Of a stretch of 64,000 nt of DNA, positions 1,374 through 18,500 are shown piece by piece. Below the pieces are notes generated by a model. The model saw only the letters and a list, made by a program, of their open reading frames with translations. It made no database searches and was not told where the DNA came from. Within the stretch, counting starts at the first letter, position 1. Every line of letters begins with the position of its first letter. This stretch comes from Azospirillum sp. TSH58 (GTDB lineage Bacteria; Pseudomonadota; Alphaproteobacteria; Azospirillales; Azospirillaceae), in NCBI RefSeq assembly GCF_003119115.1, contig NZ_CP022365.1, positions 1 through 64,000 of the forward strand. The letters run 5' to 3'. A program made the position numbers and the translations under genes.

Positions 1374-1818
1374 CTTCTGGGCGTCGATGAAATAGCAGCG
1401 GGTTTGCCCTTGCGAGCGGATCTGCCCCTCGTTCCACAGGGGTGGATGGGCGAACCGCTTGATCTGGGGAAACTCCGACACCGACCTGTGCGGAGTCTGG
1501 TCAAAGACCCGGAAGCCGGCTTCCTCCAGCATCTGCCGCATCGTGCTGGGGATGAGGGCGACATCGAATAATGGCATTCAAAGGCCCGTGCAGGTTCGCG
1601 TTGTCTTCGGTAACCCGCAGCACGCCGCCGCGCTTGAGGACGCGGAAGCAGTCCTTGAAGAATTCATGATATTGCGAAATTGGCACGTACATCATCATAT
1701 GGGAAATCGTGATCCCATCGACCGAATCCGCTTCGAACGCGCGGAGGCCCATGTGGAACTCCCACAGCGTCGCCTGCAACCCGTCCTTCCTGTGAGGTCG
1801 GAAATCGAGATTGATCAT
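1374..1818 (-). pseudogene. Class I SAM-dependent methyltransferase, split across frames
   Basis: From an ATG at 1818 the protein reads MINLDFRPH, then SVDGITISHMMMYVP and VLKRGGVLRVTEDN, which are the post-motif-I acidic strand, motif II region and motif III of a class I methyltransferase of the kind in glycan loci. At about 1578 the reading must jump to another frame to continue with MPLFDVALIPSTMRQMLEEA and GFRVFDQTPH, the usual C-terminal part. Without the jump the protein ends at 1501. The glycine-rich SAM loop is absent from this frame. A possible version (LVYPGCERDLEK) is at the end of the preceding reading frame, which overlaps the ATG by 4 nt, so the real gene may begin further upstream. 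Function is uncertain in its present state. Confidence 0.6.
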
Positions 1819-2186
1819 GCCTTTTCCAGATCCCGCTCGCAGCCAGGATAAACCAGAACCGGTCCACCGAAGTCATATTCGGGATCAAGGTAGAGAAACT
1901 GCGCGCCCCCGATGAAATTCCAGCCATCGGTCAGAACGACGTCCGCCACCTGAGGAACGCGATCCTGCTTCAGTTCGTTGACGAGCGGTGGGCCAGCCTT
2001 CAATTCGGGAAGCCGGCAGGACAGGACGCTGACACCGGGCAGGATCGTCGGTTCGCAAACCACGTCCGCACGGGCCTCGGACGACCATCCCAGGAAGCGG
2101 GCATGGAGTTGCCTTGCATTCAGACGCTTCAAGTCCGCGGTCGGCACATGGATCGTCACGCTCACCCCGCCCGTCAGCGGACCCAT
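1815..2186 (-). CDS. Hypothetical protein, possibly the N-terminal part of the following methyltransferase
   Basis: This 123-residue product starts at the ATG at 2186, 13 bp inside the end of the upstream methyltransferase, and its TGA overlaps the next ATG (ATGA at 1815-1818). The C-terminus reads DPEYDFGGPVLVYPGCERDL. Followed by MINLDFRP in the next frame, this resembles the SAM loop plus acidic strand of a methyltransferase, which suggests a lost base at the junction. The rest (HVPTADLKRLNARQLHARFL) has no family that I recognise. An in-frame extension to 2489 exists but is arginine/glycine-rich shadow of the upstream gene. It could equally be a genuine small coupled gene. Confidence 0.45.
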   Translation of the reverse strand: MGPLTGGVSVTIHVPTADLKRLNARQLHARFLGWSSEARADVVCEPTILPGVSVLSCRLPELKAGPPLVNELKQDRVPQVADVVLTDGWNFIGGAQFLYLDPEYDFGGPVLVYPGCERDLEKA

Positions 2187-3115
2187 CGAGGGCTGATGCG
2201 CAGGATGCTGAAGGACGGGGTCGTCGGATGATGCCCCAGATCCGTGTATCGCCTCTGACTGTCCGGCAGAATGACGCCCCGACCGTCGAAGGGAAGCGCA
2301 TCCGACTGCTCCGCCCCCGCCCTTGCGGCCCGCTCCTGGTCGGCCCGGCTGGCCAGAAGATCGGAAACCATCCAGACGCCGATGGATTTGGAACTGTTCG
2401 GGTCGTTGGGGTTTGCCTGACGCTCCGGCAAGAGATGGAGTGGTTCCGGGAGATTGAACGGAGGCTTTGTCAAATTGATCGGACGCCACGCACCGCCGGG
2501 AGAATCCATGTTGGCGCCAAGGGCCGGATAGGTAGACAGCATGAGAAACCGGCCACCGCCCGCCGCCATCCGGTCGATGGTCCGTAGAATGTCGGCGTTC
2601 GAAAGGAAGCTCAGGGCGTCATGGGACAGCACCGCGTCGTAACCGCTGTAGTCCGCTTCCATCATGTTGCCGCGTTCGAAGCGATGGCCGGGCAGAAAGC
2701 AGGAGCTTCTTGCCAGCGACAGCGTCGCCTCGTCGATATCGATCCCGAGATAGGAGTCGATGCCGCCCGTAATGCCCACCACCCAGTTCGCGTTCCCGCA
2801 GCCTGCATCGCACAGGCTGCCCACCCGGTTCTCCTCGATGAAGCTGGACAGCAGATGGCGAATCCGCTGTGTGGCCTGCCATGTCGAACCGGGCCACAAC
2901 GCCTCCGGCGTCGCGGCGTCGCCCGTGGTCTGGTGCATCAGACAATAATTGAGAAGCCTGTTGTGCACGGACTTGAAGGACGGAGACAGGAACGGCCAGA
3001 GAGCCAGCCACTCTTCCGACGACGTCACATCCAGCCAGCGGCTGATGTATTCCGGAGTGATGCCCCACCCGGGCAGCCCCGGTTTCTCTTCCAGATTGGG
3101 ACGGTTGGGGCTCAT
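2174..3115 (-). CDS. Class I SAM-dependent methyltransferase
   Basis: A 313-residue methyltransferase. The SAM-binding motif I is LCDAGCGNANWV (about residues 101-112), followed by the acidic-strand segment SYLGIDIDEATLSLAR and motif II-like DYSGYDAVLSHDALSFL. The segment GGAWRPINLTKPPFNLPEPL is characteristic of a methyltransferase group found in polysaccharide biosynthesis loci, whose members usually end soon after a 'KSLGLWRI-DL' stretch. Here KSIGVWMVSDL is followed by about 65 extra residues, so the C-terminus may be altered. The ATG at 3115 overlaps the stop of the upstream gene by 4 nt (ATGA), indicating translational coupling. The likely role is O-methylation of a sugar; the substrate is unknown. 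Confidence 0.8.
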   Translation of the reverse strand: MSPNRPNLEEKPGLPGWGITPEYISRWLDVTSSEEWLALWPFLSPSFKSVHNRLLNYCLMHQTTGDAATPEALWPGSTWQATQRIRHLLSSFIEENRVGSLCDAGCGNANWVVGITGGIDSYLGIDIDEATLSLARSSCFLPGHRFERGNMMEADYSGYDAVLSHDALSFLSNADILRTIDRMAAGGGRFLMLSTYPALGANMDSPGGAWRPINLTKPPFNLPEPLHLLPERQANPNDPNSSKSIGVWMVSDLLASRADQERAARAGAEQSDALPFDGRGVILPDSQRRYTDLGHHPTTPSFSILRISPRWVR

Positions 3116-4263
3116 ATGGATGCCATGAACGGGGCGGAAGCTGGCCCCGGAGACGGCAGCGCCCCAACCTTGCGGCGCACGATCTCGTAAAGCACATTCT
3201 CATCGATGGTGCTGTCGAGCGGAATGTCCGAAATATCGGGCAAAGGATAGTAGGCGTCGAATCTTGAGAAATGAAGGCCCGTCATCAAGGTCGAGTTGGG
3301 ACGCACGATGTTGCTGTAGGGGAGCTTGGTCTGCTCCATCATCGAAAGATGTTTTTCCGGGATATTCGATTCAAGAATGAAGATATCGATGTCACCGATG
3401 TAGACATAATGGGCGTTGGAAATAGGAACCTCGACGAACCGAACGGTGTTCGGAATAATGTTCGCGAAATTTCCCTCTCGAATGACGAGGCGATCCGTGC
3501 CGAAGATATTGTGGAGAGTTTTGATCGCTTCGTCGTTGCGGACGATAAAATTCTGGAGGCCCTGCACACACACTTCGACCAGCGCATCGTCATGATGGTA
3601 CAGGATGCTGAACGCCCATGGGACGACGAAGTGATCGTAGGCACGGTTGACGGCGGAAAAGAACAGGGTGGTACGTTCGGTTCGCTTCAGGTCGCCGCGG
3701 GCTTCCCTTTGGGGCGATGGATTGGCCGGAGCCACGGCGGACCCGCTAGGCACCAGGCTGAACCCTTCGACAACCACGCCACGCCCGCGGCCGGGATAGT
3801 CAGTAGCCTCCCCCCCGTCCAGCAACATGATGCCGATGGAATAATGCGCTCCGGCGGTGAAGGCCGGAATCGTGAACTGGACGTGGAAAAGATCGGGTTC
3901 CAGCATCATGACCTCGAAAACATCCGCCGGAATCCGGGATGCGACGGAATTCGCGAAGGAGATCCAGGCATTCGACGACCATCCTCCGCAAACCAACCGA
4001 ATTCGAAGGCCATTGGCATCGCGGTTGCGCAGGAGCATCCGCACCGACACGGCCTCGCCATCCGATACCGCCGTCCGGGTCCAATGAACCCAATGCACTC
4101 CGTCGGTGTTCGTTTCGGTCAGGGCGAAGGACAACACGGCGGGATCCTTCCACCCGGGCCGCGCCAGGGGCGCATGGGGAGTGGCCTTGACGTTCACAGC
4201 GCTCCAGGCACCGAGATCGTGGACCGTTGCGGTGAAGAAGGACGTCATGTTGCTCACCATCAT
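3112..4263 (-). CDS. Two-domain glycan protein: beta-sandwich plus GT-A-like domain
   Basis: The product has up to 383 residues. The N-terminal ~170 residues (PAVLSFALTETNTDGVHWVH, then SVRMLLRNRDANGLRIRLVC) look like a jelly-roll carbohydrate-binding domain. The C-terminal ~200 residues (from TTLFFSAVNRAYDHFVVPWA) carry YVYIGDIDIFILE, a DxD-like motif, followed by NSTLMTGLHFSRFDAYYPLP, which resembles GT8-like nucleotide-sugar transferases. A glycosyltransferase role is inferred. AGGAG lies immediately before the ATG ATG GTG run, so the GTG at 4257 (spacing 6) or the ATG at 4260 may be the true start. It is first in the minus-strand series reading toward the left edge. Confidence 0.65.
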   Translation of the reverse strand: MMVSNMTSFFTATVHDLGAWSAVNVKATPHAPLARPGWKDPAVLSFALTETNTDGVHWVHWTRTAVSDGEAVSVRMLLRNRDANGLRIRLVCGGWSSNAWISFANSVASRIPADVFEVMMLEPDLFHVQFTIPAFTAGAHYSIGIMLLDGGEATDYPGRGRGVVVEGFSLVPSGSAVAPANPSPQREARGDLKRTERTTLFFSAVNRAYDHFVVPWAFSILYHHDDALVEVCVQGLQNFIVRNDEAIKTLHNIFGTDRLVIREGNFANIIPNTVRFVEVPISNAHYVYIGDIDIFILESNIPEKHLSMMEQTKLPYSNIVRPNSTLMTGLHFSRFDAYYPLPDISDIPLDSTIDENVLYEIVRRKVGALPSPGPASAPFMASI

Positions 4264-5305: not shown

Positions 5306-7543
5306 TCAGTCCGTTGACCGCGCTGCGGCGACCGCCTTCTCGGCCATCTCCAGGAGACGGGACGTATCCTTGCGAAGCTGATCGGAATCGGGACGCCGGA
5401 AGTCTCCCTGGGCAAAGCGCCGGTTGCGGTAAGCCAGGACGAGCGGCTCGGTCTCCGCCGCGGGGGCCTGCAGCTCCGGCAGGGTCCGCTCGGTCGGCCT
5501 GATCGCCTCCACCATCCGGATGATCGCTTCTCCGGTGACGCCGCCCGGAATGGCGGCATGGAGGAGAGCGGGAAGCCAGGCATCCTGCGCAATGGTCGCC
5601 ATGCCGCGGGTTTCACGGATCGCGGCCATGCGCCGCTCCATACCGGCCCACTCGGTTTCGAAGGCCAAGTCCAGCGCGTCCCGCCAATCACCATAGGTGT
5701 TCGCGCAGAGAACGCCCGCGTCCAGATCCGAATCCCGGTAATAGGCCACGTCGCTGTAGACCCCGATGTGACCGAAGCCGGCGAACTCCACCATCTTGAT
5801 GTCGGACTTGCAGTTGATGAAGTCCATGACATCCGGGGATTCGATGGTCTGGATCGGCGACACGCCGATGAGCGTCGGCTGATGCTCCAGGAACCGGAGA
5901 TATTCGCTGAAGCTCATCCGCCCCATATGGCGGATCATCTCGTCGTCGTCCAGACTGCGGTCGGCGACGCCGAGCACATAGATCGGCAGACCGCGCTCCC
6001 GGGAAAAGTCCTGGATCGCGCTCACCACCGCCCGTTTCTGCGAGAACAGCGGCGGATTGTCGCTCGACACCCAGAGCAGCCCCTCGGGCTTGGACGGCCG
6101 CTTCATCGCGGCCCCCGGTGAAAAGCGGACGGCGTTCGGCACGACGAAGGTCTTCTCCAGCAGGCCGCCGCCGGCCCCCCGGTCCAGCCTCTGCGCAAGA
6201 CGCTGGTTGGTGGTCACCACGCTCCGCGCGAGCCGGAGGTTGTTGAGCAGTTCCAGCGGATTCGACAGCGGGCTCCGGTGATAGGTCTGCTTGGCCAGGA
6301 GATTGTCATCGATGTCGAAAAGACAGCCACCCAGATAATGGATCGCGCTCACGATCACGGGGCTGCAACGGCGCTGTATCCAGACGACGTCATAGCTCGC
6401 TTTCCTCGCCGCCGGCGTCAACTCGTCCAGCGAGTTAACCGCGCAGTAGGAATCGATCTTTCCGCTTTGGCGCAGCACCTCCAGCGGCTCGATTCCGCGG
6501 ATCGCACCCAATCCGCTGCGCTGCTCGAGCAAGGCCAGGACGCGCGGCTTGGCTCCGCGCAGGGCGGAGGGCATCGGCGCGCCGCGAGGCGAATCATGGT
6601 CCACAAGAAGCCGCTGCAAGGCCCCGACGGCGCGGGCGTTGAGCCTCCGGCAAACTCCAGCGGTCTGCCGGCGGATCGCTTCCAGGTCGGTCCCGCGCGC
6701 CAGTTCCAGAACCGTCTCCACCGCTTCCGTCACGCCGCTCCCCGGCATGACCGCGCCGAGCCCGCACAGGCGGACCAGATCACCCAGCGGCGACAGCCCG
6801 TTCAGAATGACCGGAACGCCATCGAGCAACGGCGAGCGAAGCGCCGATCCCAGTTCCGGCAGCATGGCTTCGACCGGAATCGCGATGTCGCAGGCCGACA
6901 GCAGGCGCGTCCGCTCCGCCATGCTCGTGTAGGACGCCACCTCCACCGGCAGCCCTTCGGACGGCGCGGGGGCGCCATCGGCAGCGTGGTGGATGACACG
7001 GAAAAGCACCGGCCCGCGGGAAGAATGCTTCGACAGCGCGTCGGAAAGGGCGGCGACGACCTGATCCGCCGGCGCAAGATCGGCCAGGATGGCGACCTGG
7101 ACGCCCTCGCCTCCCGTCTTCTCGCCGCGCCCGCCGCCGACGTTGGTCAGCATGCCGGCGTCCTTCAGCGGATCGTCGTTCAGCACGAGATCGAAGATTC
7201 CGCTCAAACCGGCAGCGTCGCCGAGCGTTTCGCCATCGGCGATTTTAAGGCCGGCAAATCGGGAGAAGCGCGGCGGAAGCGGCTGTCCGGGCGCGCACCA
7301 GACGGCGGCCGCGGCGTTCAGCCGGACGAGAACGGCATCGCTGTGGGCGGGATTCCAGCGTTCAGAAGCGACCCGCTCCGATGCCGGCGCCATGGGATCG
7401 CCGGCGGCGATGTCCACGGCGACGACCGGATCGAACCCCGCCTCCCTCAGAGCTCCCCACAGCGTCTCGATACGGACGCCAATACGGGTGAACGGTCCAC
7501 CATCCGACGGCGGAAACTGGGGAGCAAGAATGACGATGCGCAT
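5306..7543 (-). CDS. Two-module glycosyltransferase (GT4-like)
   Basis: A 745-residue cytoplasmic protein. The N-terminus MRIVILAPQFPPSDGGPFTR is typical of a GT-B N-terminal Rossmann domain. Residues 1-320 form one module ending in glycosyltransferase-like helices, and a second starts near residue 325 with KPRVLALLEQRSGLGAIRGI. The second contains CLFDIDDNLL, a SVVTTNQRLAQRL switch and KTFVVPNAVRF, the usual central pattern of GT4-like enzymes, then DIKMVEFAGFGHIGVYS, which occupies the position of the EPAACG donor-binding motif. The start follows GAGG with a spacing of 6. Its stop is 53 bp from the 5252 methyltransferase gene, and the upstream repeat-protein gene ends 12 bp before its start, so it belongs to the same operon. 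Acceptor and donor are unknown. Confidence 0.8.
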   Translation of the reverse strand: MRIVILAPQFPPSDGGPFTRIGVRIETLWGALREAGFDPVVAVDIAAGDPMAPASERVASERWNPAHSDAVLVRLNAAAAVWCAPGQPLPPRFSRFAGLKIADGETLGDAAGLSGIFDLVLNDDPLKDAGMLTNVGGGRGEKTGGEGVQVAILADLAPADQVVAALSDALSKHSSRGPVLFRVIHHAADGAPAPSEGLPVEVASYTSMAERTRLLSACDIAIPVEAMLPELGSALRSPLLDGVPVILNGLSPLGDLVRLCGLGAVMPGSGVTEAVETVLELARGTDLEAIRRQTAGVCRRLNARAVGALQRLLVDHDSPRGAPMPSALRGAKPRVLALLEQRSGLGAIRGIEPLEVLRQSGKIDSYCAVNSLDELTPAARKASYDVVWIQRRCSPVIVSAIHYLGGCLFDIDDNLLAKQTYHRSPLSNPLELLNNLRLARSVVTTNQRLAQRLDRGAGGGLLEKTFVVPNAVRFSPGAAMKRPSKPEGLLWVSSDNPPLFSQKRAVVSAIQDFSRERGLPIYVLGVADRSLDDDEMIRHMGRMSFSEYLRFLEHQPTLIGVSPIQTIESPDVMDFINCKSDIKMVEFAGFGHIGVYSDVAYYRDSDLDAGVLCANTYGDWRDALDLAFETEWAGMERRMAAIRETRGMATIAQDAWLPALLHAAIPGGVTGEAIIRMVEAIRPTERTLPELQAPAAETEPLVLAYRNRRFAQGDFRRPDSDQLRKDTSRLLEMAEKAVAAARSTD

Positions 7544-7555
7544 TCCAAACCTCGA

Positions 7556-9277
7556 TCAGCATTCAAACCGGCAGATCCGGGATGCGGTACCCCCAGCTCT
7601 CGGCTTCGCTACAGGTGCAACGGCAGGTTCCTGAAGATCCGGCGTTTCAGCGGCCGCCACGCAGCGTTCACCGATGGCCTCCGCCTCGAGCATCCAGGTC
7701 CTGGTCAGGCCCTGCATGGCTTCGAGATGCTGCACGAGACGCCGCCGCTCGGACGTCAGCGTGTTGATGCGGCGGATCATCTGATCCGTGCGCCCGACCA
7801 GGGCCTTCAGGAGGTGATCCTGCTCGAAGTAATCGCCCGTGTGCAGGCCGTACAGGATAAACCACTCGAACCCGCTGCGGAACGTCTGCTCCTTGATCGC
7901 CCGCGCAACCTGCGGCCGGGAAGCGACGAAACCGGCTTCATTGAATCCGGCGAGGGCGGCATAGCCCTGGCGGCCTCCTTCGCTCAGATAATGCGCGAAC
8001 GCCGAGCCGATCGTGCCGGCCTGGACGCGCCGCTCGACCTCCGGATACTTGTGCAGGTACCAGGTCGGGTCGAACAGGCGGCTGGGCGCCAGCCCCGCCC
8101 GCGCGCCCTGGTCAAGGAAGTGCAGGAAGGCCGAACCCGCGTGTTCCGTAAGGGACGGCGGCGCGGCCAGCTGCCCGGCATAATGGGCGGCGTCGAACCA
8201 AAGGGTCGGGCTGCGGTTCGCCGACAGGCCGCTGCGCAGGAAGTGATCCAGCCCGCAACCGTAATGCCCGACCGCGATCTGCTGGGGAACGTCGATGTAC
8301 CGGCGCTGATACCAGAACTCGTCGAACAGCATGTTGGGACGCAGGATGGAGGTGGCGGCATGCGCCCGGAAATGGGCGAAGGCTTCCTCCACCGTCGCGT
8401 CCTCCGGCAGAGCCGGCGTGGTCGAGCGGTAGTACGCGGCGTCGAAACACAGAAGGACGGGATCGCCGTCCGCCGCGGCCTCGTCGGACACGGGTTCCGA
8501 CATCCACAGCCCCTGCGCCTCAAGCGCGCGGCGGAAACGCAGGGCGTTCGCGCGGACCGCGTCAGCGTCCAGGTTGCGGGCCCTGCCGGTTCCAGCAACC
8601 GCGGGCACGTCCAACGGCATCATCGGACCGATCGTCACCGGCGAACCGTCGAGCATGAGTCCGGTGCCGCTGACCTCGACCGTGGCTTCCATCGCCTCGT
8701 CGGACAGCAGCCTGGCCGGAATGGGCAGGGCATAACCGTAATTGCCGTTTCCGATTCCGGCTGCGACCAGGTCGGGACGGTGGACATTTGCCACAGCCGA
8801 GGCAATGGCCTCGCCGTTGAGGATCAGATTGACCGTGACCGCCGCATCGGGCTTTCCCCAATTGCACACCCAACCGGTGACCTGGCCGTTCAGCACCTCG
8901 TCCACATGCCCGCTGTACGGCGAAAAGAGCACATTGCCGCCAGACAGTTCCTGGTCGTCGCGCCCCGCCGTCACCCGGATACGGTGGGGAAGTCCGTCCA
9001 GAAGGCTGTCCTTGATGTCGAACGAATAGCCGCACCGGCTCTCGCCGATCCCCTGATCCCCGAGATCGTTCCGCAGATGGTCCGCGGGGCCGGTGGCGAC
9101 CTTGCGGTCGTCCACCCACACCGAAACATCCACCGCACTGTCCGGCAGGTCCGGATCGAAAGCCCAACCGAACACCACAGTGCCGGAGAGACCGGTCAGA
9201 TCCCCCTTGATCGCGCGCCGATCGGGAACGCCCGCTTCGGAAAACGAGACTGTCTCTGCGATGTCGATCACCTGCAT
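7556..9277 (-). CDS. GWAF beta-sandwich and FD-WY repeat protein without a glycosyltransferase domain
   Basis: This 573-residue protein has two N-terminal beta-sandwich units, residues ~25-110 (SGTVVFGWAFDPDLPDSAVD, later GYSFDIKDSLLDGLPHRI) and ~115-210 (NGQVTGWVCNWGKPDAAVTV, GYALPIPARLL). Several ~40-residue repeats of the form LFD-x-WY-x-x-x-YPDV-...-HYL-x-x-G follow (LFDEFWYQRRYIDVP, LWFDAAHYAGQL, LFDPTWYLHKYPEVERRV). These modules are known as companions of glycosyltransferase domains, and both occur in the 1533-aa protein at 13899. No catalytic domain is visible, so a scaffold or glycan-binding role is inferred. I chose the ATG at 9277 (GGGG close upstream) over the GTG at 9286. A helical segment follows the repeats near residues 500-550. 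Confidence 0.7.
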   Translation of the reverse strand: MQVIDIAETVSFSEAGVPDRRAIKGDLTGLSGTVVFGWAFDPDLPDSAVDVSVWVDDRKVATGPADHLRNDLGDQGIGESRCGYSFDIKDSLLDGLPHRIRVTAGRDDQELSGGNVLFSPYSGHVDEVLNGQVTGWVCNWGKPDAAVTVNLILNGEAIASAVANVHRPDLVAAGIGNGNYGYALPIPARLLSDEAMEATVEVSGTGLMLDGSPVTIGPMMPLDVPAVAGTGRARNLDADAVRANALRFRRALEAQGLWMSEPVSDEAAADGDPVLLCFDAAYYRSTTPALPEDATVEEAFAHFRAHAATSILRPNMLFDEFWYQRRYIDVPQQIAVGHYGCGLDHFLRSGLSANRSPTLWFDAAHYAGQLAAPPSLTEHAGSAFLHFLDQGARAGLAPSRLFDPTWYLHKYPEVERRVQAGTIGSAFAHYLSEGGRQGYAALAGFNEAGFVASRPQVARAIKEQTFRSGFEWFILYGLHTGDYFEQDHLLKALVGRTDQMIRRINTLTSERRRLVQHLEAMQGLTRTWMLEAEAIGERCVAAAETPDLQEPAVAPVAKPRAGGTASRICRFEC

Positions 9278-9368
9278 GATCCCCACTCTATGCCGCGGTC
9301 AATGTCGAACCGGCCCCTCCGCTGCGGTGGCCGGAATGCTTCCAGACGCCTGTGATCCCAGGAAGCCA

Positions 9369-12300
9369 TCAGCGCTCCGAAACCGTCAAAGGCCGTGACG
9401 GCTCCGCGTCCACCCCGGTCCCGGCGGAACCGGCATCGAACAGCTCTTCCATCCGCGAAGGGAAGTTCCGCAGCCAGGCTTGTGGGGAATAGGCCGCGAT
9501 GCAGGCATCGGCGGCCGCGTTGGCGACCCTCTCCCGCAGCTCGCCGTCCCGGATAAGCGCGTCCAGGCATTCCAGCCACTCGCTCGCCGACCCGGCCAGG
9601 AAGCCCGTCACGCCATGCTCGATCGCATCGCGGAACGGCTCCGTCGGGCTGGCGACCGTCGGCACACCGGCGACGGCCGCTTCGATGAACTTGATGGCGC
9701 TCTTGCATTCGTTGAACGGATTGATCTCGAGCGGAGCGATGTTGATGTCGAACTTGGCCAGTTGGAACGGCAGCTCCCAATGTTCGACGAAGCGGTGCTG
9801 GTGAACGCGGCCCGCCACCTCGGGGGAGAATTCACCCGGATCGAGAAACCCGATCAGGTCCAGATGGACGTTCGGATGGACCCGCAGGAGTTCGTCCAGG
9901 ACGGGGCGGACGAGTTCGAAATCGGCGTTGTGGGTGGCGCTGCCGCTGGCATAGCCGATGCGCACGACGCCGCCGGTCGCAGCCCCCCGGCGTCCGGCCC
10001 GCGCCGCTTCCGACGCGGTCAGCAGCTGTTGCGACAGGCAGTTCGGCAACAGCCCGACACGCTCCACCCCCTCGTCGGCCAACATGCGCGCCAACGGCGC
10101 CGTGCTGCATGTCGCGCCGTTGCAGGCCCGCAGCAGGGCGGCGAAGCGCTTCGCCTCGTCCTCCGCGTTCCCCGGCTCGGCCTTTCCGGCGCGGACGAGC
10201 TGCTCGGCGTAGGCTTGGGAAAAGGTCACGTCGTCGAAGTCGGCCAGGCACACGATGTTCTTCGCGCGCGCTTCGCTGATCAGCGCGCCCAGCCGCCCGG
10301 AAAACGGCGTCCGGTGGAAAATGATGACGTTGTGGGTGCCGAGGGCGATTTCCTCGCGGCCGGATTTCAGGAAGGTTTCCAGGGGAAGCCGCCGGACGGG
10401 CATTCCCGCGCCACGCAGGGCAGCCTCGGGATGATCGACGCGCCAGGTTCGCGTTCCGCCCTCGGAGCCGTGAACGAGAAGGACTCCCTTGATCGCGTTC
10501 CGGATGATGCGTCCCGTCCGCCGCCAGGGCGTCCCGCGATCCGCATCGCCCGCCATGGCGGCCGGCGGTGCCGCGTTCCCATCGATCTCGCGAGCGATCA
10601 GTTCCTCCCACTCGCGCATGTAGTTGTTCACATGGAACAACTCCATCGCGGTGTCCCGCGCGCGCTTGCCGACCCGGCGACGCAGGCCCGGATCGCGGAC
10701 AAGCTGGTTCAGCACCTCCACGGCGTGGTCCGGCTCGTCGCACAGGAAGCCGTTGTAGCCATGGTCGATGAACCGGTCGGCATCGTGCGTGGACGTCGTC
10801 ACCACGGCCTGTCCCAGCATCATGGCCTCGCCACGCACGCGCGGCATGGGGCTGCGGGCCGTGGGATTGAAGAAGATGCCGAAATTGCGGACGAAATGGA
10901 CATAGTTCTGGTAATGCGCAAGCCCGAGATCGTTCTCGTTCTTGAAAGCCGCCGTCACGGGCGGCTTCTGCACGCTGTTCGCACGCTTGCCCCCGAGCAG
11001 GAAGGCCTTGCCGCGCAGACGCTCCGTGACTTTGTCGTAGAAAAGAACACCGCGGTAATCGGGACGATCTTCAAGATCCCCAACCGTGATGATCTTATCG
11101 CTCGGATCGATCGGAGGATAATGGATCGGGTCGAAGCCGTGCCAGATCACATGGGAGCGGTGGAATCCCCACTCCTTGGCCGCCTGAAGCGAATTGCACA
11201 CGACGAGGCAGTCCGACAGCGCGTCCACGATCTCACGGCGCAGCTTGTCGACGTCATAGGTTTCCGCTTCGAGCTTCGCGGCGATTCCCGGCCCGACGAT
11301 CTCATCCCTGCGCCCGAACAGGTTCAGATCCCGCTCCGACAGGGGGGTCCCATGACAGATCGCGATCTTCTTTCCGTTGAAGCGCTTCATGTATTCGAAC
11401 GCGGCGCCCCAATGGGTCGAGTGCTTCGGATACAGATAAGGCCGAAGAATGAACTCATCAAAATGCAGGATGGCAAAATCATAATCGTTGAAATTGCACT
11501 GCTTTTCGTTGACGTTCAGGAAGTTCGCATTATCCGGCAAAGGACGCGACTTGTAGTCCCAGGCCGAACCGAACCCCGGCAAGCCGGTCAGAAGCGTGAA
11601 GGAATAAGGCAGCTTCCAAAGATCGTACTGGTGACCGATGTGCCACCGCGTGGTCAGCACCTTCTTCTTGGGATGGCTGACGATGGTCCGCGGACGAACC
11701 ACCCGGTGCGACGTGGCGAAATGCTCGGCCAGCCCGTCACGCTCCTCCGCCGCGGAGATGTCGTAACGGTCCAGCCAGTCCATGATCTTCTGGTACGTCG
11801 AATGCGCCCAGTCCGGAGCCGCGAGCGAAAGCTCCGGATGCTTGCGCATCAGCTTCAGGAAATTCTTAGCCGAACGCGGAGCCTTCTCCTGGTCGGACAC
11901 TTCCGGTGGGTGGGTCTTGTGGACGGAAACGGCGGTGCGGCTGAAGCTGATCTTGGCCCCCAGCCGGTACAGCCGGTAGCCCATCTCGATGTCCTCCCAG
12001 CCGAAGCCGGAGTTGGCGTCAAGGCTGTAGGAAAAGGCTTCGTCGAACAGCGGCTCGCCAAGCTTGTCCAGGAATTCCGAGGTGATCGAGAAGTTTCGGG
12101 TCACCGTGTTGACGAAGGCGGTCGGCTCCACGTTGAACTGCAGCCGCATTTCCTTCAGCGCCTTGTCGGGCGCCGCCGCGAAGGCTCCGTGGAGCGCTTG
12201 GATGTCGCGGCCCTGGCCCTCGATCCCCATCGGACCGATGCAGACGTCCGCTCCGGCGTCGTCGTGCGCGGCGACATGCGAAGAGACAAAATTGGGACTG

Positions 12301-12602
12301 AGGCAGCAGTCCGCGTCGACCACGCACAGGATACGCCCGGAAGCCGCCAGCAGCCCCTTGTTGCGGCACCCGCAATTCCCCACGTTCCGGTCGTTGCGGA
12401 TCAGCCGGATGGTCAGATTCTCGTCGCCCAGCTTCTCGGACGCCAGCTTCACAATGTCCGGGGAACCATCCGTTGAGCAATCGTCAACAATGATGATCTC
12501 GATGGACCCCTTAAAATCCTGTCGCTTTATCGAAGAAAAATAATCCCACAAAGAAGCCGACTTGTTGAGTACGGCTGACACAATCGAAAAATCCGCGGCC
12601 AT
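9369..12602 (-). CDS. Triple-module glycosyltransferase (GT2-GT4-GT4)
   Basis: A 1077-residue protein. Residues 1-270 are a GT2 domain: FSIVSAVLNKSASLWDYFSS, IIIVDDCSTDGSPD and ILCVVDADCC (DxD), with GFGWEDIEMGYRLYRLGAKI near the acceptor end. Residues ~310-640 form a GT-B module: KIAICHGTP, HVIWHGFDP, and PRVRGEAMMLGQAVVTTSTH at the donor loop. Residues ~670-1050 form a second GT-B module: NIVCLADFDDVTFSQ, VGLLPNCLSQQ, VRIGYASGSATHNADFELVR and CKSAIKFIEAAVAGVPTVAS. Three activities in one chain suggest sequential sugar addition. The ATG at 12602 lies 3 nt past the upstream gene's stop; a GTG at 12608 overlapping that stop is the alternative. It is coupled to the small gene at 12850. Confidence 0.85.
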   Translation of the reverse strand: MAADFSIVSAVLNKSASLWDYFSSIKRQDFKGSIEIIIVDDCSTDGSPDIVKLASEKLGDENLTIRLIRNDRNVGNCGCRNKGLLAASGRILCVVDADCCLSPNFVSSHVAAHDDAGADVCIGPMGIEGQGRDIQALHGAFAAAPDKALKEMRLQFNVEPTAFVNTVTRNFSITSEFLDKLGEPLFDEAFSYSLDANSGFGWEDIEMGYRLYRLGAKISFSRTAVSVHKTHPPEVSDQEKAPRSAKNFLKLMRKHPELSLAAPDWAHSTYQKIMDWLDRYDISAAEERDGLAEHFATSHRVVRPRTIVSHPKKKVLTTRWHIGHQYDLWKLPYSFTLLTGLPGFGSAWDYKSRPLPDNANFLNVNEKQCNFNDYDFAILHFDEFILRPYLYPKHSTHWGAAFEYMKRFNGKKIAICHGTPLSERDLNLFGRRDEIVGPGIAAKLEAETYDVDKLRREIVDALSDCLVVCNSLQAAKEWGFHRSHVIWHGFDPIHYPPIDPSDKIITVGDLEDRPDYRGVLFYDKVTERLRGKAFLLGGKRANSVQKPPVTAAFKNENDLGLAHYQNYVHFVRNFGIFFNPTARSPMPRVRGEAMMLGQAVVTTSTHDADRFIDHGYNGFLCDEPDHAVEVLNQLVRDPGLRRRVGKRARDTAMELFHVNNYMREWEELIAREIDGNAAPPAAMAGDADRGTPWRRTGRIIRNAIKGVLLVHGSEGGTRTWRVDHPEAALRGAGMPVRRLPLETFLKSGREEIALGTHNVIIFHRTPFSGRLGALISEARAKNIVCLADFDDVTFSQAYAEQLVRAGKAEPGNAEDEAKRFAALLRACNGATCSTAPLARMLADEGVERVGLLPNCLSQQLLTASEAARAGRRGAATGGVVRIGYASGSATHNADFELVRPVLDELLRVHPNVHLDLIGFLDPGEFSPEVAGRVHQHRFVEHWELPFQLAKFDINIAPLEINPFNECKSAIKFIEAAVAGVPTVASPTEPFRDAIEHGVTGFLAGSASEWLECLDALIRDGELRERVANAAADACIAAYSPQAWLRNFPSRMEELFDAGSAGTGVDAEPSRPLTVSER

Positions 12603-12604
12603 CT

Positions 12605-12850
12605 TCACACCTGAGCAGAAAAACCGTTAACGCGAGCCTGCACTTCCTCAAATTCTTTCTTTATATTCGATATAGAAATGTTATCATTTTTATTTGCAGA
12701 ATATGCCTTCTGATACAGCACATTTCCGCTGTGATTTTTTACAATCACACTCCAAATTATATTTGGATCTTTCTTTTCAACTTTAAATTCGACGACGCCT
12801 ACCGCATCTATATTGATGTACACCTCGTTTGTTAATTTAATAAGTGCCAT
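12605..12850 (-). CDS. Small hypothetical protein coupled to the triple glycosyltransferase
   Basis: An 81-residue product, MALIKLTNEVYINIDAVGVV through VLYQKAYSANKND to VNGFSAQV. It looks like a small beta-rich domain with a C-terminal helix and resembles the general type of short PH-like or DUF-style proteins, but I recognise no family. The ATG at 12850 has AAGG eight bases upstream; an ATG at 12865 is less likely. Its stop lies immediately before the glycosyltransferase start. Its codons are A/T-rich (many AAA, AAT, ATT), unlike the GC-rich genes on either side, suggesting separate acquisition. It may modulate or bind the giant enzyme; this is inference. Confidence 0.6.
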   Translation of the reverse strand: MALIKLTNEVYINIDAVGVVEFKVEKKDPNIIWSVIVKNHSGNVLYQKAYSANKNDNISISNIKKEFEEVQARVNGFSAQV

Positions 12851-13898
12851 TTTACACCTTGCCAATGCCGTCCGCGCGCTCGCAACCTCCGGTACGGTTA
12901 CGTCGATCTTCTTGATATTTGATTAAGAATTCCCAACCGCGCCGATCGGCCTCAGACGCTCGGTCCCGGTGTGTCATGGCAGGGAAACGGCCCCAGGAAA
13001 AGAGGCGTGGGCAGCCCAGGGCAAACGCCCCATGTCTGTCGCCACCCAGCCATCCCTGAAGCAACGGTCAAATCACGCGGATGAGTTGCACGCTCGAGGA
13101 AGCGACAGCGAAAGGTCGTTACCATGAGACCCAGGAACTGAACATCAGCGTACGATTTTGAACAGCTTCCGCCTCGCCTCCGTAGTAAGGGCCATGCCCG
13201 GGACTGAAGGGCGGGCACAGCAACCCTCCACCTCCCATGCCCCGCACCACACGCCCGCACCTGGACATGACCTTGCGGTGACACCGCGTTTTCAAGCCAA
13301 ACGTGCCTGTTTACCCACTATATCAAACCGAGCTATCCCTTCATAACAGTATTGACACTGCCGATGGAATGGCGCACAAAAGGCTCGCCTTAATACACAC
13401 GCCCCGCAAAGGGGAGACGTGTGTTGTACCAGCACATCGCACACCATAAAGTTTATTTTTTAGACATCTTAATGAACTTATGAATACTAAAAAATGCATC
13501 TTTGCACTACAAGGTAGAAGAATTTTATTCATAAAAATAAAATAAAATAATGCGAAAATTTATCGTCTACAGTTTTTTGCGATTTCTTCTGTGTGCCTTA
13601 CGCGCTTGACTGAATTCCTGGAAAGAACGAGGCGTACTGCGCTGTGATCCGTATGAATACATACCGGGAATCCTTGAGCCTAAACGATGCAGGGCACACG
13701 GTTTCCATCATGCCCTTCCCGGTAGCCGAGGCCACGCCGAGCCCGCCGCCCTCCGGAACATGGCTATCCCCCAAACCCCGATTATAGGGCGCCCCCGTTT
13801 CCGGCCATCGCCCCCGGCACCGGCACCGGCGCTCACCGCGGCGCTCGGCGGGCGCCTTTGAAAAACGCCATATTTTCCAGCACAAGACGATACTGAAG
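12851..13898. other. One-kilobase divergent intergenic region
   Basis: This gap separates the minus-strand block (start 12850) from the plus-strand giant glycosyltransferase (start 13899). Short open frames on both strands lack codon bias, ribosome binding sites or recognisable motifs, so I call no gene. Its 13430-13600 part is strongly A/T-rich and could hold promoters. The 13680-13870 part is GC-rich. The contents are otherwise unexplained. Confidence 0.5.
13395..13424. other. Strong hairpin in the divergent intergenic region
   Basis: ACACACG (13395-13401) pairs with CGTGTGT (13418-13424) and CCCC (13402-13405) with GGGG (13411-13414). No T tract follows on either strand, so it is not a standard terminator. 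It could be a transcript structure or a protein site. Confidence 0.4.
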
Positions 13899-16800
13899 AT
13901 GATGCAGCGACCAAAGATCATCGGCAACCTCGACTCCGTCGATTTTAGCAATATTTATGGCTATTCTCTCTCTGGCTGGGCCTTCGACAGCGCGAATCCT
14001 GACCACAAGGTCGCCATCAGCGTCCTCACGGACGGGCAATGCATCGCGATGTCCACAGCGCGCTACTACCGGCGCGATCTCTTCAAGAGCGGCAGGGGCG
14101 GCGGCTTTCACGCATTTTCCATCCTGATCCCGATGGAGCATCTCCCCGATCACGCGCCGCGGGTCTTCCATGTCGTCGCCAACGGGGAATTGATCGGCAG
14201 CGCCTCCATCAGCCCGTCCGACCGCCCCACCCCGCTCCGCGCCCTGTTCGGCGGACAGAGCCCGGCGAGCCTGGCCGAAGCGGGTGTCGCCCCGCAGGAC
14301 CGGCCGGTCGATGCCGTTGGCGATGTCGCCATGCTGGCCGGCGGCGGGATATTCGACGCCCAGTGGTATTCGCAGATTTACCCCGACGCCGCCGAATGGT
14401 GCCGTGGAACCGGGGCGTCGCCCTATCTGCACTACCTGTTCATCGGCCGCGCCCAGGAACGCCTGCCCCATGTTCCCATAAACATGTCATGGTATGTGGA
14501 ACGGTACGGGACCATCATCCGCGGCATGCGCGGGGTTCGCGCCGCCACCCCGATCGATCACTATTATGTCGCCGGGAGCGTGTTCGGCTTCGACGCCGTT
14601 CCGGGATTCGACGAACAGACCTACCTGCGCATCAACGACGACGTCGCCGATCTGGTGGAAAACCGCCATCTGATCAGCGGCTACCGCCATTACATCATGT
14701 TCGGTGCCGCCGAAGGCCGCTCCACAGCGCCGTGGAGCGCGCTGCCGCCGCTCCACGCCCATGAACTGCCAAGCCGTCCCGAATTCGCCGCCATGATAAG
14801 CGGCGAACTCAATGGCGCCCCGGCTGCGCCCGGCCCGACCGGACGGAACTGGGCCATGATCAACGCCAGAAGCTTTTTCGCAGGCCCGGCGGCGGACAGC
14901 TTCACCGAGGAAATCTACCGCGCCCACCGCCCCGACGTGGCCATCGCCATCGCAGGACGGCAACTTCCCTCCGGCGCCGAGCACTGGCGCAACCACGGGC
15001 TGACCGAGGATCTGGCCGGAACCGCGCCCCGCATCCCGGGCTATTGCGAAAACCGTTATCTCTCAAACAACCCCGACGTATCGGAGGCGGTGTCGAACCG
15101 CGCGATCCCTTCGGGATATCACCACTTCCTCAGCCACGGCCATCGGGAAGCGCGCAAGGGCGGGATCGATCACGGCGAACCGGCCCCGCGCGCGATCGCG
15201 ACCAACGACATCCTGCAGCGGATCGCGGCCGGGGACGGCTGGCCGACGATCTCCATCGTCATGCCGGTTTATCAGACGCCGGAACGCTGGCTGCGGGGGG
15301 CGGTCGACTCCGTGCTCGCCCAGCTCTACCCATTCTGGGAGCTGTGCATCGCCGACGACGCCTCGCCCAGCCCGCATGTCCAGGAACTGCTGGCCGAATT
15401 CGCCGCGCGCGACCCCCGCATCCGCGTCGCGACCCTGCCGGCCAACGGCGGCATCTCCGCCGCGTCGAACGCCGCCCTGTCCCTCGCCACGGGCGACTGG
15501 ATCGCGCTGCTCGACCATGACGATCTGCTGACGCCGGACGCGCTCTATGAGATTGCCGCGGCCGTCGTCGAACACGACCCCGACGCCATCTATTCCGACG
15601 AAGACAAGATGAGCGTCGACGGCCGCTTCTACGACGCGACGCACAAGCCCGGCTGGTCGCCCGAGTTGCTGCGCAGCACGATGTACATCGGGCACCTGAC
15701 CTGCTACCGCGCCTCCGTCGTCCGCTCGGTCGGCGGCTTCCGCAGTGCCTATGACGGGACCCAGGACTACGATCTGGCGCTCCGCGTCGCGGCGGTGACC
15801 GACCGCTTCGTCCATGTGCCGAAAATCCTGTACCACTGGGTGGCCATCCCGGGTTCCACGGCCGAGGTCCTGTCGGCCAAGAGCTACGCGGTGGAACGGC
15901 AGAGGAAAGCCATCGAGGAGGCCCTGGCCTCGCAGGCGGCCACGCCCTTCGAGGTGCGTCCCCACTGGTCGACGGGCAACTGGCGCGTGGTTTACGCACC
16001 GCCTGAACAAGCCCCGTCCGTCAGCGTCGTGATTCCCACGGCGGGCCGGAAGGGCGAGATGTTCGGGATGACCGTCGATCTCGTGACGAACTGCGTGATG
16101 AGCCTCTTCGGCAGCGAATGCTACGGCAACTTCGAGGTCGTCGTCGTGCACAACGGCGAACTGGAGGATTCCACGCTGCGCTTCCTGCGCGCCTTCCCGA
16201 ACGTGCGCGAGTTCAACGCCCAGCGTCCGGTGTTCAACTTCTCCGAACGCGTGAACATCGGCGTGGAGCAGGCGCGCGGCGACTATGTCCTTCTGCTCAA
16301 CGACGACATCCAGGCCATATCCAAGCATTTCCTGCGCGACATGGTGGGGTTGGCCTCCCAGCCGGGGGTCGGCATCGTCGGCCCGCGCCTGCTGTTCGCC
16401 AACGGCACGATCCAGCACATCGGCATCATGCTGCTGAACGGCAGCCCGACCCACGCCATGATCGGCGAACACCGCCTGTCGCCGGGTCCGCAGGGGATCG
16501 CGCAACTGACGCACAACGCCGCGGCGACGACCGCCGCCTGCCTGCTGGTCTCGCGCAAGCTCTACCAGGAGGTGGGAGGCTTCGACACCGGCCTCTGGCT
16601 GAACTACAACGACGTCGATTTCTGCAACAAGGTGCGGGCGAAGGGGTTGCGGATCGTCGTCGATCCCGCCATCGAGCTGTACCACTTCGAGTCCCTGTCG
16701 AAGGAAGGAACCTTCAACTGGGAATTGCAGAACTTCATCCGGCGCTGGGGCATCGAACGGGACCCGAACGTCAACCCGAACTTCACTTCCGCCAATCCCT

Positions 16801-18500
16801 TCTACGAGATCGCCCGCACCCCCTCGGACCGGCCCGTGCGCGACGTGGAGGAGCAGATCATGACGCGCATCGCCGCGTCGCGGACCCGCCCCGCCGTCGA
16901 GGAGTCGATCCGCTTCTCCTTCTTCATGAGCACCTACAAACAGCCGATCCGGTTCCTGCGCGAGATCGAGAAGACCATCCTCAACCAGTTCTACCGGAAC
17001 TTCGAATGGGTGATCGTCAGCGACGGCGACCACCGGCCGGAGCTGCTGGACTGGCTGCGCGACGTGTCCGCCCATGACAACGTGAAGGTCATCGTCAGCC
17101 CGGAGAACCGCGGCATCATGGCCGGGTATGGAATGGCCTTCCGGGAAACGTCCGGCGATTACGTCCTGCCGGTCGATGCCGACGATTTCCTGACGCTCGA
17201 CGCCCTCCAGGTGATGGCGGAGCACATCCACGCCCACGGCTTCCCCGCCGTGCTCTACTCCGACGAGTTCAAGAGCAACCCGCAGTCCCGGCTGTTCTCG
17301 CCGTTCCACAAGCCGGACTTCGACTGGGTCCTGCATATGAACATCTGCTTCACCTGCCACCTCTGCGCCCTGCGGCGCGACGTGGCGGTGGAGACCGGCG
17401 CCTACACCGACCTGAAGGCGACCTGGAGCCACGACTGGGACACCTTCACCCGCGTCGAGCGGGCGGGCCACAAGATCGTCCATGTCCCGCATCTGCTCTA
17501 CGCGTGGCGGATCAACCCCGGGTCGACCGCATCCGTCGAAACCAGCATGAAGCCGGAGGCGCTGGACAGCCAGCGGCACGTCCTGGAACAGCATCTGGCC
17601 CTGACCGGACGCAGCCGGACGCTCGCCGTCGTCGAGAACACGCTGTTCCCCCATCCCGGAATCTGGCGGCTGGCGCCGGCGGACGGGCTGTCCGTCCCCG
17701 TGGCGATGGTGATCGACGCCGGAGCGGTCGACGAGACGGTGGTGGAGGCCATCCCCGCCATCCTGATGCAGCGCACCCCATCGTCCGGCCCGGTCCGGGT
17801 CCGGGTGGCCTCGTCCGAGGACGCGGAGCGGCTGAAGGCCCATCTCGACCGCCGGGGGGCCGGCTGGACCCTGGCGGGCCTGACCCTGCACGACGCCCCG
17901 CTCGCCTCCCTGCTCGCGGATGCCTGCGCCGACGCCGACTTCGTCGCCTTCGTGCAGGCCGGCTGCGTCCCGGCGAAGACCGGCACCCTGCGCGAACTCG
18001 CGGGGCTGCTGAACGGGGTGGAGGACGCCACGGCCGTCGGCGGGCGCGTCCTGGATCCGGATGGCCGCGTCGCCTGGGCCGGCGGCTTCTTCGGGTTCGG
18101 CGGCTTCCTGGCCACCGCGGATTACGGGCGCCGCGCGGACGACGGCGGTTATCACGGCATGGCCTTCTGCCAACGGTCCGTGGACGGCGTGTCGCCCGGC
18201 CACTGGCTGGCCCGCAGCAGCTTCATGAGCGGCCTCCTGCGGCGGATCCCGCGCGATGCCACCGCCGGGCAGATCGCAAGCGCCATCGCGCTGCGCGCCC
18301 ACGCAGACGGCAAACGGGTGCTCTACACGCCATTCAGCACCTGGACACTGGCGAAGCGCGCCTGCGTCCAGCCGCCTCCGCCCGGCGAGGCGCTGCTGGC
18401 CGCTCTTGACGTGGCGGTGCCGCGGGCAAGCCGCTGGTACAGCCCCCGCCTCTACCCACGGACGGAACGGAGCTACCTGCCCCGCGGCTACGACGCCTGA
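13899..18500 (+). CDS. Giant modular glycosyltransferase: GWAF domain, FD-WY repeats, GT2 x3 plus a degenerate fourth
   Basis: A 1533-residue protein. Residues ~20-115 are a beta-sandwich (YGYSLSGWAFDSANPDHKVA). Residues ~150-430 hold repeats such as IFDAQWYSQIYPDAAEW, PGFDEQTYLRINDDVADL and YLSNNPDVSEAV. The first GT2 begins near residue 447 (ISIVMPVYQTPERWLRGAVD; LLDHDDLLTPDAL at ~537). A second begins near 706 (SVSVVIPTAGRKGEM; LLLNDDIQA at ~798). A third begins near 1004 (FSFFMSTYKQPIRFLREIEK; LPVDADDFLTLDAL at ~1090). A fourth from ~1265 (VPVAMVIDAGAVDETVVEA) lacks an obvious DxD. This matches large GT2 arrays that polymerise or decorate surface glycans. The tandem ATGs at 13899/13902 are the likely start. 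The stop is 14 bp from the convergent gene end at 18515, with a GGCGCC-TTCA-GGCGCC hairpin (18508-18523) at the junction. Confidence 0.85.
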   Translation: MMQRPKIIGNLDSVDFSNIYGYSLSGWAFDSANPDHKVAISVLTDGQCIAMSTARYYRRDLFKSGRGGGFHAFSILIPMEHLPDHAPRVFHVVANGELIGSASISPSDRPTPLRALFGGQSPASLAEAGVAPQDRPVDAVGDVAMLAGGGIFDAQWYSQIYPDAAEWCRGTGASPYLHYLFIGRAQERLPHVPINMSWYVERYGTIIRGMRGVRAATPIDHYYVAGSVFGFDAVPGFDEQTYLRINDDVADLVENRHLISGYRHYIMFGAAEGRSTAPWSALPPLHAHELPSRPEFAAMISGELNGAPAAPGPTGRNWAMINARSFFAGPAADSFTEEIYRAHRPDVAIAIAGRQLPSGAEHWRNHGLTEDLAGTAPRIPGYCENRYLSNNPDVSEAVSNRAIPSGYHHFLSHGHREARKGGIDHGEPAPRAIATNDILQRIAAGDGWPTISIVMPVYQTPERWLRGAVDSVLAQLYPFWELCIADDASPSPHVQELLAEFAARDPRIRVATLPANGGISAASNAALSLATGDWIALLDHDDLLTPDALYEIAAAVVEHDPDAIYSDEDKMSVDGRFYDATHKPGWSPELLRSTMYIGHLTCYRASVVRSVGGFRSAYDGTQDYDLALRVAAVTDRFVHVPKILYHWVAIPGSTAEVLSAKSYAVERQRKAIEEALASQAATPFEVRPHWSTGNWRVVYAPPEQAPSVSVVIPTAGRKGEMFGMTVDLVTNCVMSLFGSECYGNFEVVVVHNGELEDSTLRFLRAFPNVREFNAQRPVFNFSERVNIGVEQARGDYVLLLNDDIQAISKHFLRDMVGLASQPGVGIVGPRLLFANGTIQHIGIMLLNGSPTHAMIGEHRLSPGPQGIAQLTHNAAATTAACLLVSRKLYQEVGGFDTGLWLNYNDVDFCNKVRAKGLRIVVDPAIELYHFESLSKEGTFNWELQNFIRRWGIERDPNVNPNFTSANPFYEIARTPSDRPVRDVEEQIMTRIAASRTRPAVEESIRFSFFMSTYKQPIRFLREIEKTILNQFYRNFEWVIVSDGDHRPELLDWLRDVSAHDNVKVIVSPENRGIMAGYGMAFRETSGDYVLPVDADDFLTLDALQVMAEHIHAHGFPAVLYSDEFKSNPQSRLFSPFHKPDFDWVLHMNICFTCHLCALRRDVAVETGAYTDLKATWSHDWDTFTRVERAGHKIVHVPHLLYAWRINPGSTASVETSMKPEALDSQRHVLEQHLALTGRSRTLAVVENTLFPHPGIWRLAPADGLSVPVAMVIDAGAVDETVVEAIPAILMQRTPSSGPVRVRVASSEDAERLKAHLDRRGAGWTLAGLTLHDAPLASLLADACADADFVAFVQAGCVPAKTGTLRELAGLLNGVEDATAVGGRVLDPDGRVAWAGGFFGFGGFLATADYGRRADDGGYHGMAFCQRSVDGVSPGHWLARSSFMSGLLRRIPRDATAGQIASAIALRAHADGKRVLYTPFSTWTLAKRACVQPPPPGEALLAALDVAVPRASRWYSPRLYPRTERSYLPRGYDA

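Follow-up and report, generated by a model that had tools for sequence, protein, structure and literature searches.

Genomic context of P0002

The window analysed here covers the opening 64 kb of contig C3 (200,555 bp) in the 7.24 Mb genome of Azospirillum, a plant-associated soil bacterium. Three genes on its minus strand follow one another in the order P0007 – P0002 – P0008, their frames separated by 91 and 12 bp, so that two enzymes flank a protein, P0002, carrying modules of two families, GWAF and FD-WY. These genes and the nearby enzymes P0004 and P0006 are listed in Table 1. Genes were called with a simple codon-usage finder that misplaced some starts (a P0008-type gene of genome G072 was cut to 285 aa compared with a frame of 760 aa, and the small gene of locus L061 was shortened), and the start of P0007 is uncertain, lying at GTG 12608 or, by the gene finder, near 12452.

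Table 1. Genes and modules around P0002 (positions in the window)
Feature	Position	Strand	Remarks
P0008, GT4-like enzyme	5306..7543	-	12 bp downstream of P0002; no FD-WY; matches a custom GT4 model; no Pfam match
P0002, catalysis-free module protein	7556..9277	-	573 aa from ATG 9277; 576 aa when read from GTG 9286
C-terminal long helix of P0002, predicted	7646..7816	-	~57 residues, low-confidence model
P0002 FD-WY repeats	7838..8449	-	by model, four above chance; fifth (4.9 bits) not
GWAF domain 2 of P0002	8639..8911	-	profile score
GWAF domain 1 of P0002	8939..9205	-	profile score; AlphaFold2 model, seven-stranded beta-sandwich
P0007, GT2-GT4-GT4 enzyme	9369..12608	-	upstream of P0002; no GWAF or FD-WY
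P0004, 1533-aa enzyme	13899..18500	+	GWAF, four FD-WY, four GT2; divergent from P0007 gene
P0004 GWAF domain	13923..14189	+	75.4 bits
P0004 FD-WY repeat region	14349..15155	+	four clear repeats, 27.7–51.5 bits
P0006, GT2-GT4 enzyme, 853 aa	18515..21076	-	claimed GWAF head without statistical support

The first 13,332 bases of C3 recur at its end (99.77% identity, 1 mismatch, 30 gap openings), and because its ends overlap the contig is probably an unclosed circle of ~187 kb. A second, identical copy of the P0002 gene at C3:194780–196507 falls within this 13.3-kb overlap, and a gene duplication was therefore rejected. In the first overlap copy (window 485–4263) a 1261-aa methyltransferase/GINT1_N gene is split into four frames, while in the second (C3:187214–200555) the P0007 gene is broken; the frame breaks in both copies are probably assembly errors. 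Among named plasmid records the nearest are from Azospirillum, the best being A. brasilense NZ_CP059454.1, which matched 47% of a 20-kb query at 83% identity.

These genes belong to a surface-polysaccharide cluster. Besides glycosyltransferases it encodes a mannose-1-phosphate guanylyltransferase. Upstream, past the point where the circle would join, it continues with an ABC-2 exporter, a type I secretion pair and a Sel1-repeat protein, together with sugar-nucleotide genes that were read by eye and from the annotated A. brasilense counterpart. The type I secretion pair and Sel1-repeat protein lie within the polysaccharide cluster (L007:6697–12061, corresponding to C3:166697–172061; also in L104 and L106), and the same trio directly precedes FD-WY-bearing polysaccharide genes on Bradyrhizobium plasmids. 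At L007:5836–6687 a GWAF domain is fused to a GNAT acetyltransferase, an arrangement conserved in several congeners.

Modules and predicted structure of P0002

Both module families were scored in P0002 with models from which this genome's own copies had been left out (66 of 72 alignment rows were kept for GWAF). The two GWAF domains, at residues 28–116 and 126–216 of the 576-aa form, reached 74.1 and 79.6 bits compared with 4.4 bits for the best of 1000 shuffles of P0002, with a model that is not wholly independent because it was first gathered with seeds from the window. FD-WY repeats at residues 281–309, 321–360, 364–402, 405–441 and 448–483 scored 11.4, 32.0, 15.9, 43.0 and 4.9 bits; as the best shuffle reached 6.2 bits, the fifth taken alone is not above chance. 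The initial annotation had described P0002 as almost entirely GWAF and FD-WY units. Both are present, but about a third of the protein consists of the N-terminus, a linker and the C-terminal helix, and the last repeat is at chance level.

No catalytic family in Pfam, NCBIfam or PHROGs reached threshold in P0002, no glycosyltransferase domain was recognised, and Pfam and NCBIfam gave no match to a terminating-enzyme domain. RTX nonapeptide repeats (HemolysinCabind) had no Pfam match in P0002, nor was any other exported domain found, while a HemolysinCabind match is present in the L054 protein, with which P0002 shares FD-WY repeats. By eye there is no signal-like N-terminus, and no membrane anchor is predicted. 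The frame is intact, and its codon usage is that usual in the window (score 144). The proposal of a protein without catalysis, composed of modules that the enzymes next to it also have, thus stands: both modules score in P0002 as well as in P0004, and the two proteins match directly by BLASTP (E 2e-14).

An AlphaFold2 model of GWAF domain 1, built from only four aligned sequences, has a pLDDT of 90.4 and a pTM of 0.82 and shows a confidently modelled seven-stranded sandwich, probably of the FnIII/Ig-like type. The closest solved structures, among the best 50 listed, were mostly FnIII, Ig and PKD domains (E ≥1.1e-3, TM-score ≤0.49); from a library of viral structures a phage protein with no assigned function (BFVD A0A8S5S4V5, 327 aa) aligned with an E of 1e-6, a TM-score of 0.75 and 22% identity. 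In this respect the modelled GWAF domain resembles the FnIII/Ig-like accessory domains of GH84C and chitinase A1, which are likewise seven-stranded beta-sandwiches in carbohydrate-related multi-domain proteins. The best PDB match stood at E 1.1e-3 and TM-score 0.45, and no relation at the level of sequence was seen.

The model of the whole of P0002 is poor (mean pLDDT 47, pTM 0.26). At this low confidence the FD-WY part is helical and a C-terminal helix spans residues 488–544, where a crude heptad score also peaks, albeit weakly. A search of the PDB by sequence returned nothing below E 0.03 and no solved relative of the FD-WY part. The earlier description of the modules as beta-sandwiches therefore holds for GWAF, whereas the FD-WY repeats are predicted, at low confidence, to be alpha-helical. 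Nothing points to a hidden catalytic site, since the GWAF domain was modelled as a small beta-sandwich, although the rest of the protein is covered by the low-confidence model only.

Distribution of the modules and other catalysis-free GWAF proteins

Across the fetched loci, 91 of 732 called proteins carry GWAF or FD-WY, and among the glycosyltransferase proteins of loci chosen because they contain these modules GWAF is present in 43 of 114 and FD-WY in 21 of 114; these frequencies are not genome-wide, because most loci were fetched for matching P0002. Forty of the 45 genomes of the genus (own included) hold something that matches P0002 at E 0.001 or better. GWAF accompanies GT2, GT4, GNAT and methyltransferase domains, in the fetched proteins mostly cytosolic-type enzymes (GT2, GT4, GNAT). 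FD-WY accompanies glycosyltransferase domains but also RTX (L054), CAP (L088) and M10 peptidase (L100) domains, which shows that its range extends beyond glycosyltransferases; L093 is listed with these three loci. Neither consensus had a credible match in Pfam or NCBIfam, and no paper was found in the open-access literature for the GWAF motif with glycosyltransferase or for FD-WY repeat strings.

Some FD-WY proteins are unusual in their own right. A 1718-aa protein at L050:3875–9031 (G021) contains 34 repeats and a GT4 domain, and very large repetitive proteins in L051 and L052 (open frames of ~4940–4980 aa) carry four repeats towards the C-terminus of the part that was fetched. Two proteins that by eye are ParA-like ATPases (L044:1501–2649 and 10780–12006) carry two repeats each; the one tested fell below the Pfam cut-off.

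Distinct fetched proteins with both modules number 14 (16 rows, with two pairs merged as the same protein); a glycosyltransferase domain is found in 13, P0002 being the sole exception. Small catalysis-free GWAF proteins were seen in five loci (L061, L062, L069, L043 and L044), after two of seven rows had been dropped (L041, cut by the locus end, and L090, by eye a broken piece of a GT92-type gene). The gene for the L062 protein (131 aa) has GT2-bearing genes on both sides, one ending 8 bp before it and the other starting 5 bp after it, and the gene for its counterpart in L061 (138 aa) overlaps both neighbours. This pair has a dN/dS of 0.105 at a dS of 0.85, with values of 0.174 and 0.133 for the flanking genes; the catalysis-free GWAF protein is under purifying selection. 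The L069 protein (260 aa, Chthonobacter rhizosphaerae) lies between GT4 and GT2 genes and, like the 258-aa GWAF protein of L043, has a predicted C-terminal membrane segment, while that of L044 (214 aa) consists of two GWAF domains and nothing else. Catalysis-free module proteins between glycosyltransferase genes thus recur (L061/L062, L069), and the presence of catalysis-free GWAF proteins beside glycosyltransferases is not an accident. The L043 and L069 proteins share with P0002 the absence of catalysis, a coil-like region (in P0002 predicted at low confidence) and a place in polysaccharide clusters, but they have one GWAF domain, no FD-WY and a predicted membrane anchor, whereas P0002 has two GWAF domains, FD-WY and no anchor.

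No orthologue of P0002 was found among the matches listed for 81 other genomes of the order. These, listed best first, included no full-length match, and among the matches listed outside its own genome, in 44 congeners and in all 81, coverage did not exceed 259 of 576 residues. In 72,556 plasmid records there were 29 partial matches, none covering 80% of the protein. An insensitive search of genome contigs with exact-peptide patterns gave 31 pattern matches but only two distant relatives (L069 and L070). A tree built from 30 GWAF pairs did not put P0002 into any supported group; the nearest by path are fusion proteins of G035 and G020, and the highest identity to the P0002 pair is 35%, in the two-GWAF protein L044_18527.

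These data bear on whether P0002 is what is left of a GWAF-FDWY-glycosyltransferase, decaying after the loss of its catalytic part. Such an origin would account for the glycosyltransferase domains in all 13 other distinct two-module proteins, and for the failure to find either a full-length match in the 81 genomes (among the matches listed) or a place covering 80% of P0002 in the plasmid records. Nevertheless, the intact frame with its typical codon usage, the 12 bp to the next gene, the C-terminal helix (in the low-confidence model) in place of a truncated enzyme, and the existence of other catalysis-free GWAF proteins, one pair of them under purifying selection, all make a remnant unlikely.

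P0004 and P0006 as candidate partners

The 1533-aa enzyme P0004 does carry the same modules followed by GT2 domains, as the initial annotation had proposed: one GWAF domain, four clear FD-WY repeats and four GT2 domains. It belongs with the GWAF-FDWY-GT2 giants of Azospirillum plasmids (relatives include one on NZ_CP059454.1), which have the two families in the same order as P0002; the P0004 type, however, has four GT2 domains (by model in most orthologues), and P0002 none. By contrast, the GWAF-like head attributed to the GT2-GT4 protein P0006 scored 1.4 bits, within the shuffle range. It was rejected after eight orthologous heads were compared with 12 GWAF domains (18 columns, probability 9, E 0.0036); all that the heads and the domains clearly have in common is the word GWAF.

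P0004 orthologues (E up to 1e-150) occur in 8 of the 81 other genomes of the order. The best E to P0002 in these eight ranged from 2e-13 to 3e-6 (among the matches listed in the genus search), and, as no full-length match to P0002 is listed for the P0004 genomes, the protein is not a constant partner of P0004. P0002 as the specific partner of P0004 was rejected, since P0004 is found in eight other genomes without P0002 (among the matches listed). The idea of a scaffold organising the 1533-aa enzyme was accordingly not borne out, with the enzyme in 8 of 81 other genomes and full-length P0002 in none of the 81 (among the matches listed), and co-occurrence of the two, chosen beforehand as the check on this idea, fails in eight of eight genomes (again among the matches listed).

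A role for P0002 as scaffold or chain-length ruler for P0004, with a function like that of WbdD, has some attraction: the two neighbouring genes encode modules in common (E 2e-14), P0002 has a predicted C-terminal helix of ~57 residues, and an ABC-type exporter is encoded in the same cluster. Besides the eight of eight genomes with P0004 and without P0002 (among the matches listed), however, P0004 brings its own modules, P0002 has no terminator domain, and up to E 0.001 the 260-aa export ATPase of the cluster matches nothing but ABC/AAA domains, with no carbohydrate-binding domain. This role is distinctly unlikely. A glycan ruler in particular is unsupported: the terminator domain is missing, a single short helix is predicted, and no carbohydrate-binding domain was recognised in the export ATPase.

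In Klebsiella O4 and O7, parts of the polymerase are spread over interacting single- and multi-module proteins, and a coiled-coil protein acts as a membrane-associated scaffold with a chain terminator (available text of PMC11231755). To the extent described there, P0002 resembles WbdD/WbbB and the Klebsiella O4/O7 ORF proteins in principle, in that assembly parts reside on separate proteins. WbdD/WbbB-type proteins, in the same text, combine a terminating enzyme with an extended coiled coil, whereas P0002 has no enzyme and one short predicted helix, and modules such as GWAF and FD-WY are not mentioned for these systems in that text (PMC11231755). Lacking a terminator domain, and encoded with an export ATPase without a carbohydrate-binding domain, P0002 is not a member of the WbdD/WbbB type.

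Relatives of the flanking enzymes P0007 and P0008

Relatives of the N-terminal half of P0007 were found in three genomes (G020, G035 and G072), and in two of the three (G020, G035) they are fused to three GWAF domains. These fusion proteins of ~2170–2190 aa begin with the P0007-type part (30–31% identity, E ~1e-84), followed by the three GWAF and two GT2 domains; their GWAF domains match the P0002 pair at 32% identity (E 4e-24 and 1e-23). In both genomes the next gene is of the P0008 type and encodes an FD-WY repeat. The G072 genome, from another genus, has a P0007-type gene (34.6%, E 4e-126) without GWAF, followed directly by a P0008-type gene. In the class as a whole the N-terminal part of P0007 was found only in its own genome among 385, a weak negative with at most two candidates scored per genome.

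A search identified P0008-type genes in five genomes, and gene context added that of G072. In all six proteins (G020, G035, G072, G008, G028 and G037) the shared region is followed by an FD-WY repeat and a tail. P0008 itself matches the profile of these proteins over residues 2–669 (probability 99.8, E 1.2e-29), and scoring with the FD-WY model detected no repeat in it. One BLAST alignment to a relative extends to residue 742, so a decayed repeat in the tail of P0008 is possible.

Relatives of the C-terminal GT4 of P0007 occur in five genomes. In G006 and G042 they are fused behind a GWAF-FDWY head, beside a P0004 orthologue. The P0004 orthologue on the plasmid of A. brasilense has a divergent neighbour whose product is a GWAF-FDWY-GT2 protein, in which a second GWAF-like stretch and a GT4 part were read by eye. 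Against a partnership of P0002 with P0007 and P0008 stand the G072 gene without GWAF and the remaining three of the five C-terminal GT4 relatives, which are without a module. Independent events are also few, because the six P0008-type proteins fall into roughly two lineages and one GWAF fusion is a near-copy of the other, and some fusions are to be expected where GWAF and FD-WY are common in such clusters.

Discussion

The modules that are found inside the enzymes of relatives are found here in a protein encoded between the enzymes, and P0002 is thus probably a detachable helper of its neighbours; by sequence, it looks like modules supplied in trans. We put at about 0.5 the probability that P0002 is a non-catalytic accessory subunit of polysaccharide assembly, acting with P0007 and P0008, which are better-supported partners than P0004. 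P0002 would correspond to the head modules that related glycosyltransferases carry in cis, present here as a separate protein, and it may bind one or both of P0007 and P0008, the growing glycan, or enzyme and glycan alike, thereby holding enzymes and acceptor together. The sequence data show the modules, the order of the genes, the fusions among relatives, a P0002 with no catalytic domain recognised, and further catalysis-free GWAF proteins next to glycosyltransferases; the physical interaction, action in trans, contact with glycan and cytosolic location are what we infer for P0002.

That P0002 might instead be an exported surface protein attaching to polysaccharide is suggested by the occurrence of FD-WY repeats alongside RTX, CAP or M10 peptidase domains and by the type I secretion pair in the same cluster. 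We consider this highly unlikely, as P0002 has no RTX or other exported domain and no signal-like N-terminus by eye, and GWAF in the fetched proteins mostly accompanies cytosolic-type GT2, GT4 and GNAT enzymes. A hidden enzymatic activity in the FD-WY part, for which there is room in that this part is modelled at low confidence only and no solved relative was found in the PDB, is barely credible, because runs of up to 34 copies and unrelated carriers fit a repeat module rather than an active site.

A broader and more tentative reading extends the accessory role of P0002 to the two families themselves. GWAF and FD-WY are possibly undescribed, exchangeable docking modules for envelope-polysaccharide enzymes that work alike in cis and in trans, with FD-WY also tying secreted proteins to the finished polysaccharide. 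If this is true, a cluster could rearrange its enzyme complex through the fusion or release of modules: in cis they would be fused to GT2, GT4, GNAT or methyltransferase domains, and in trans they would act as free adaptors, of which P0002 would be an example.

Two module families without Pfam or NCBIfam models are present within a modular polysaccharide machinery. Giant glycosyltransferases abound in the polysaccharide clusters of Azospirillum plasmids, and neither Pfam nor NCBIfam has a model for their non-catalytic halves; the free-standing P0002 offers a direct way to ask what role those halves play while leaving the enzymes untouched. The two module models, for their part, provide a means to annotate many proteins that are now named just glycosyltransferase.
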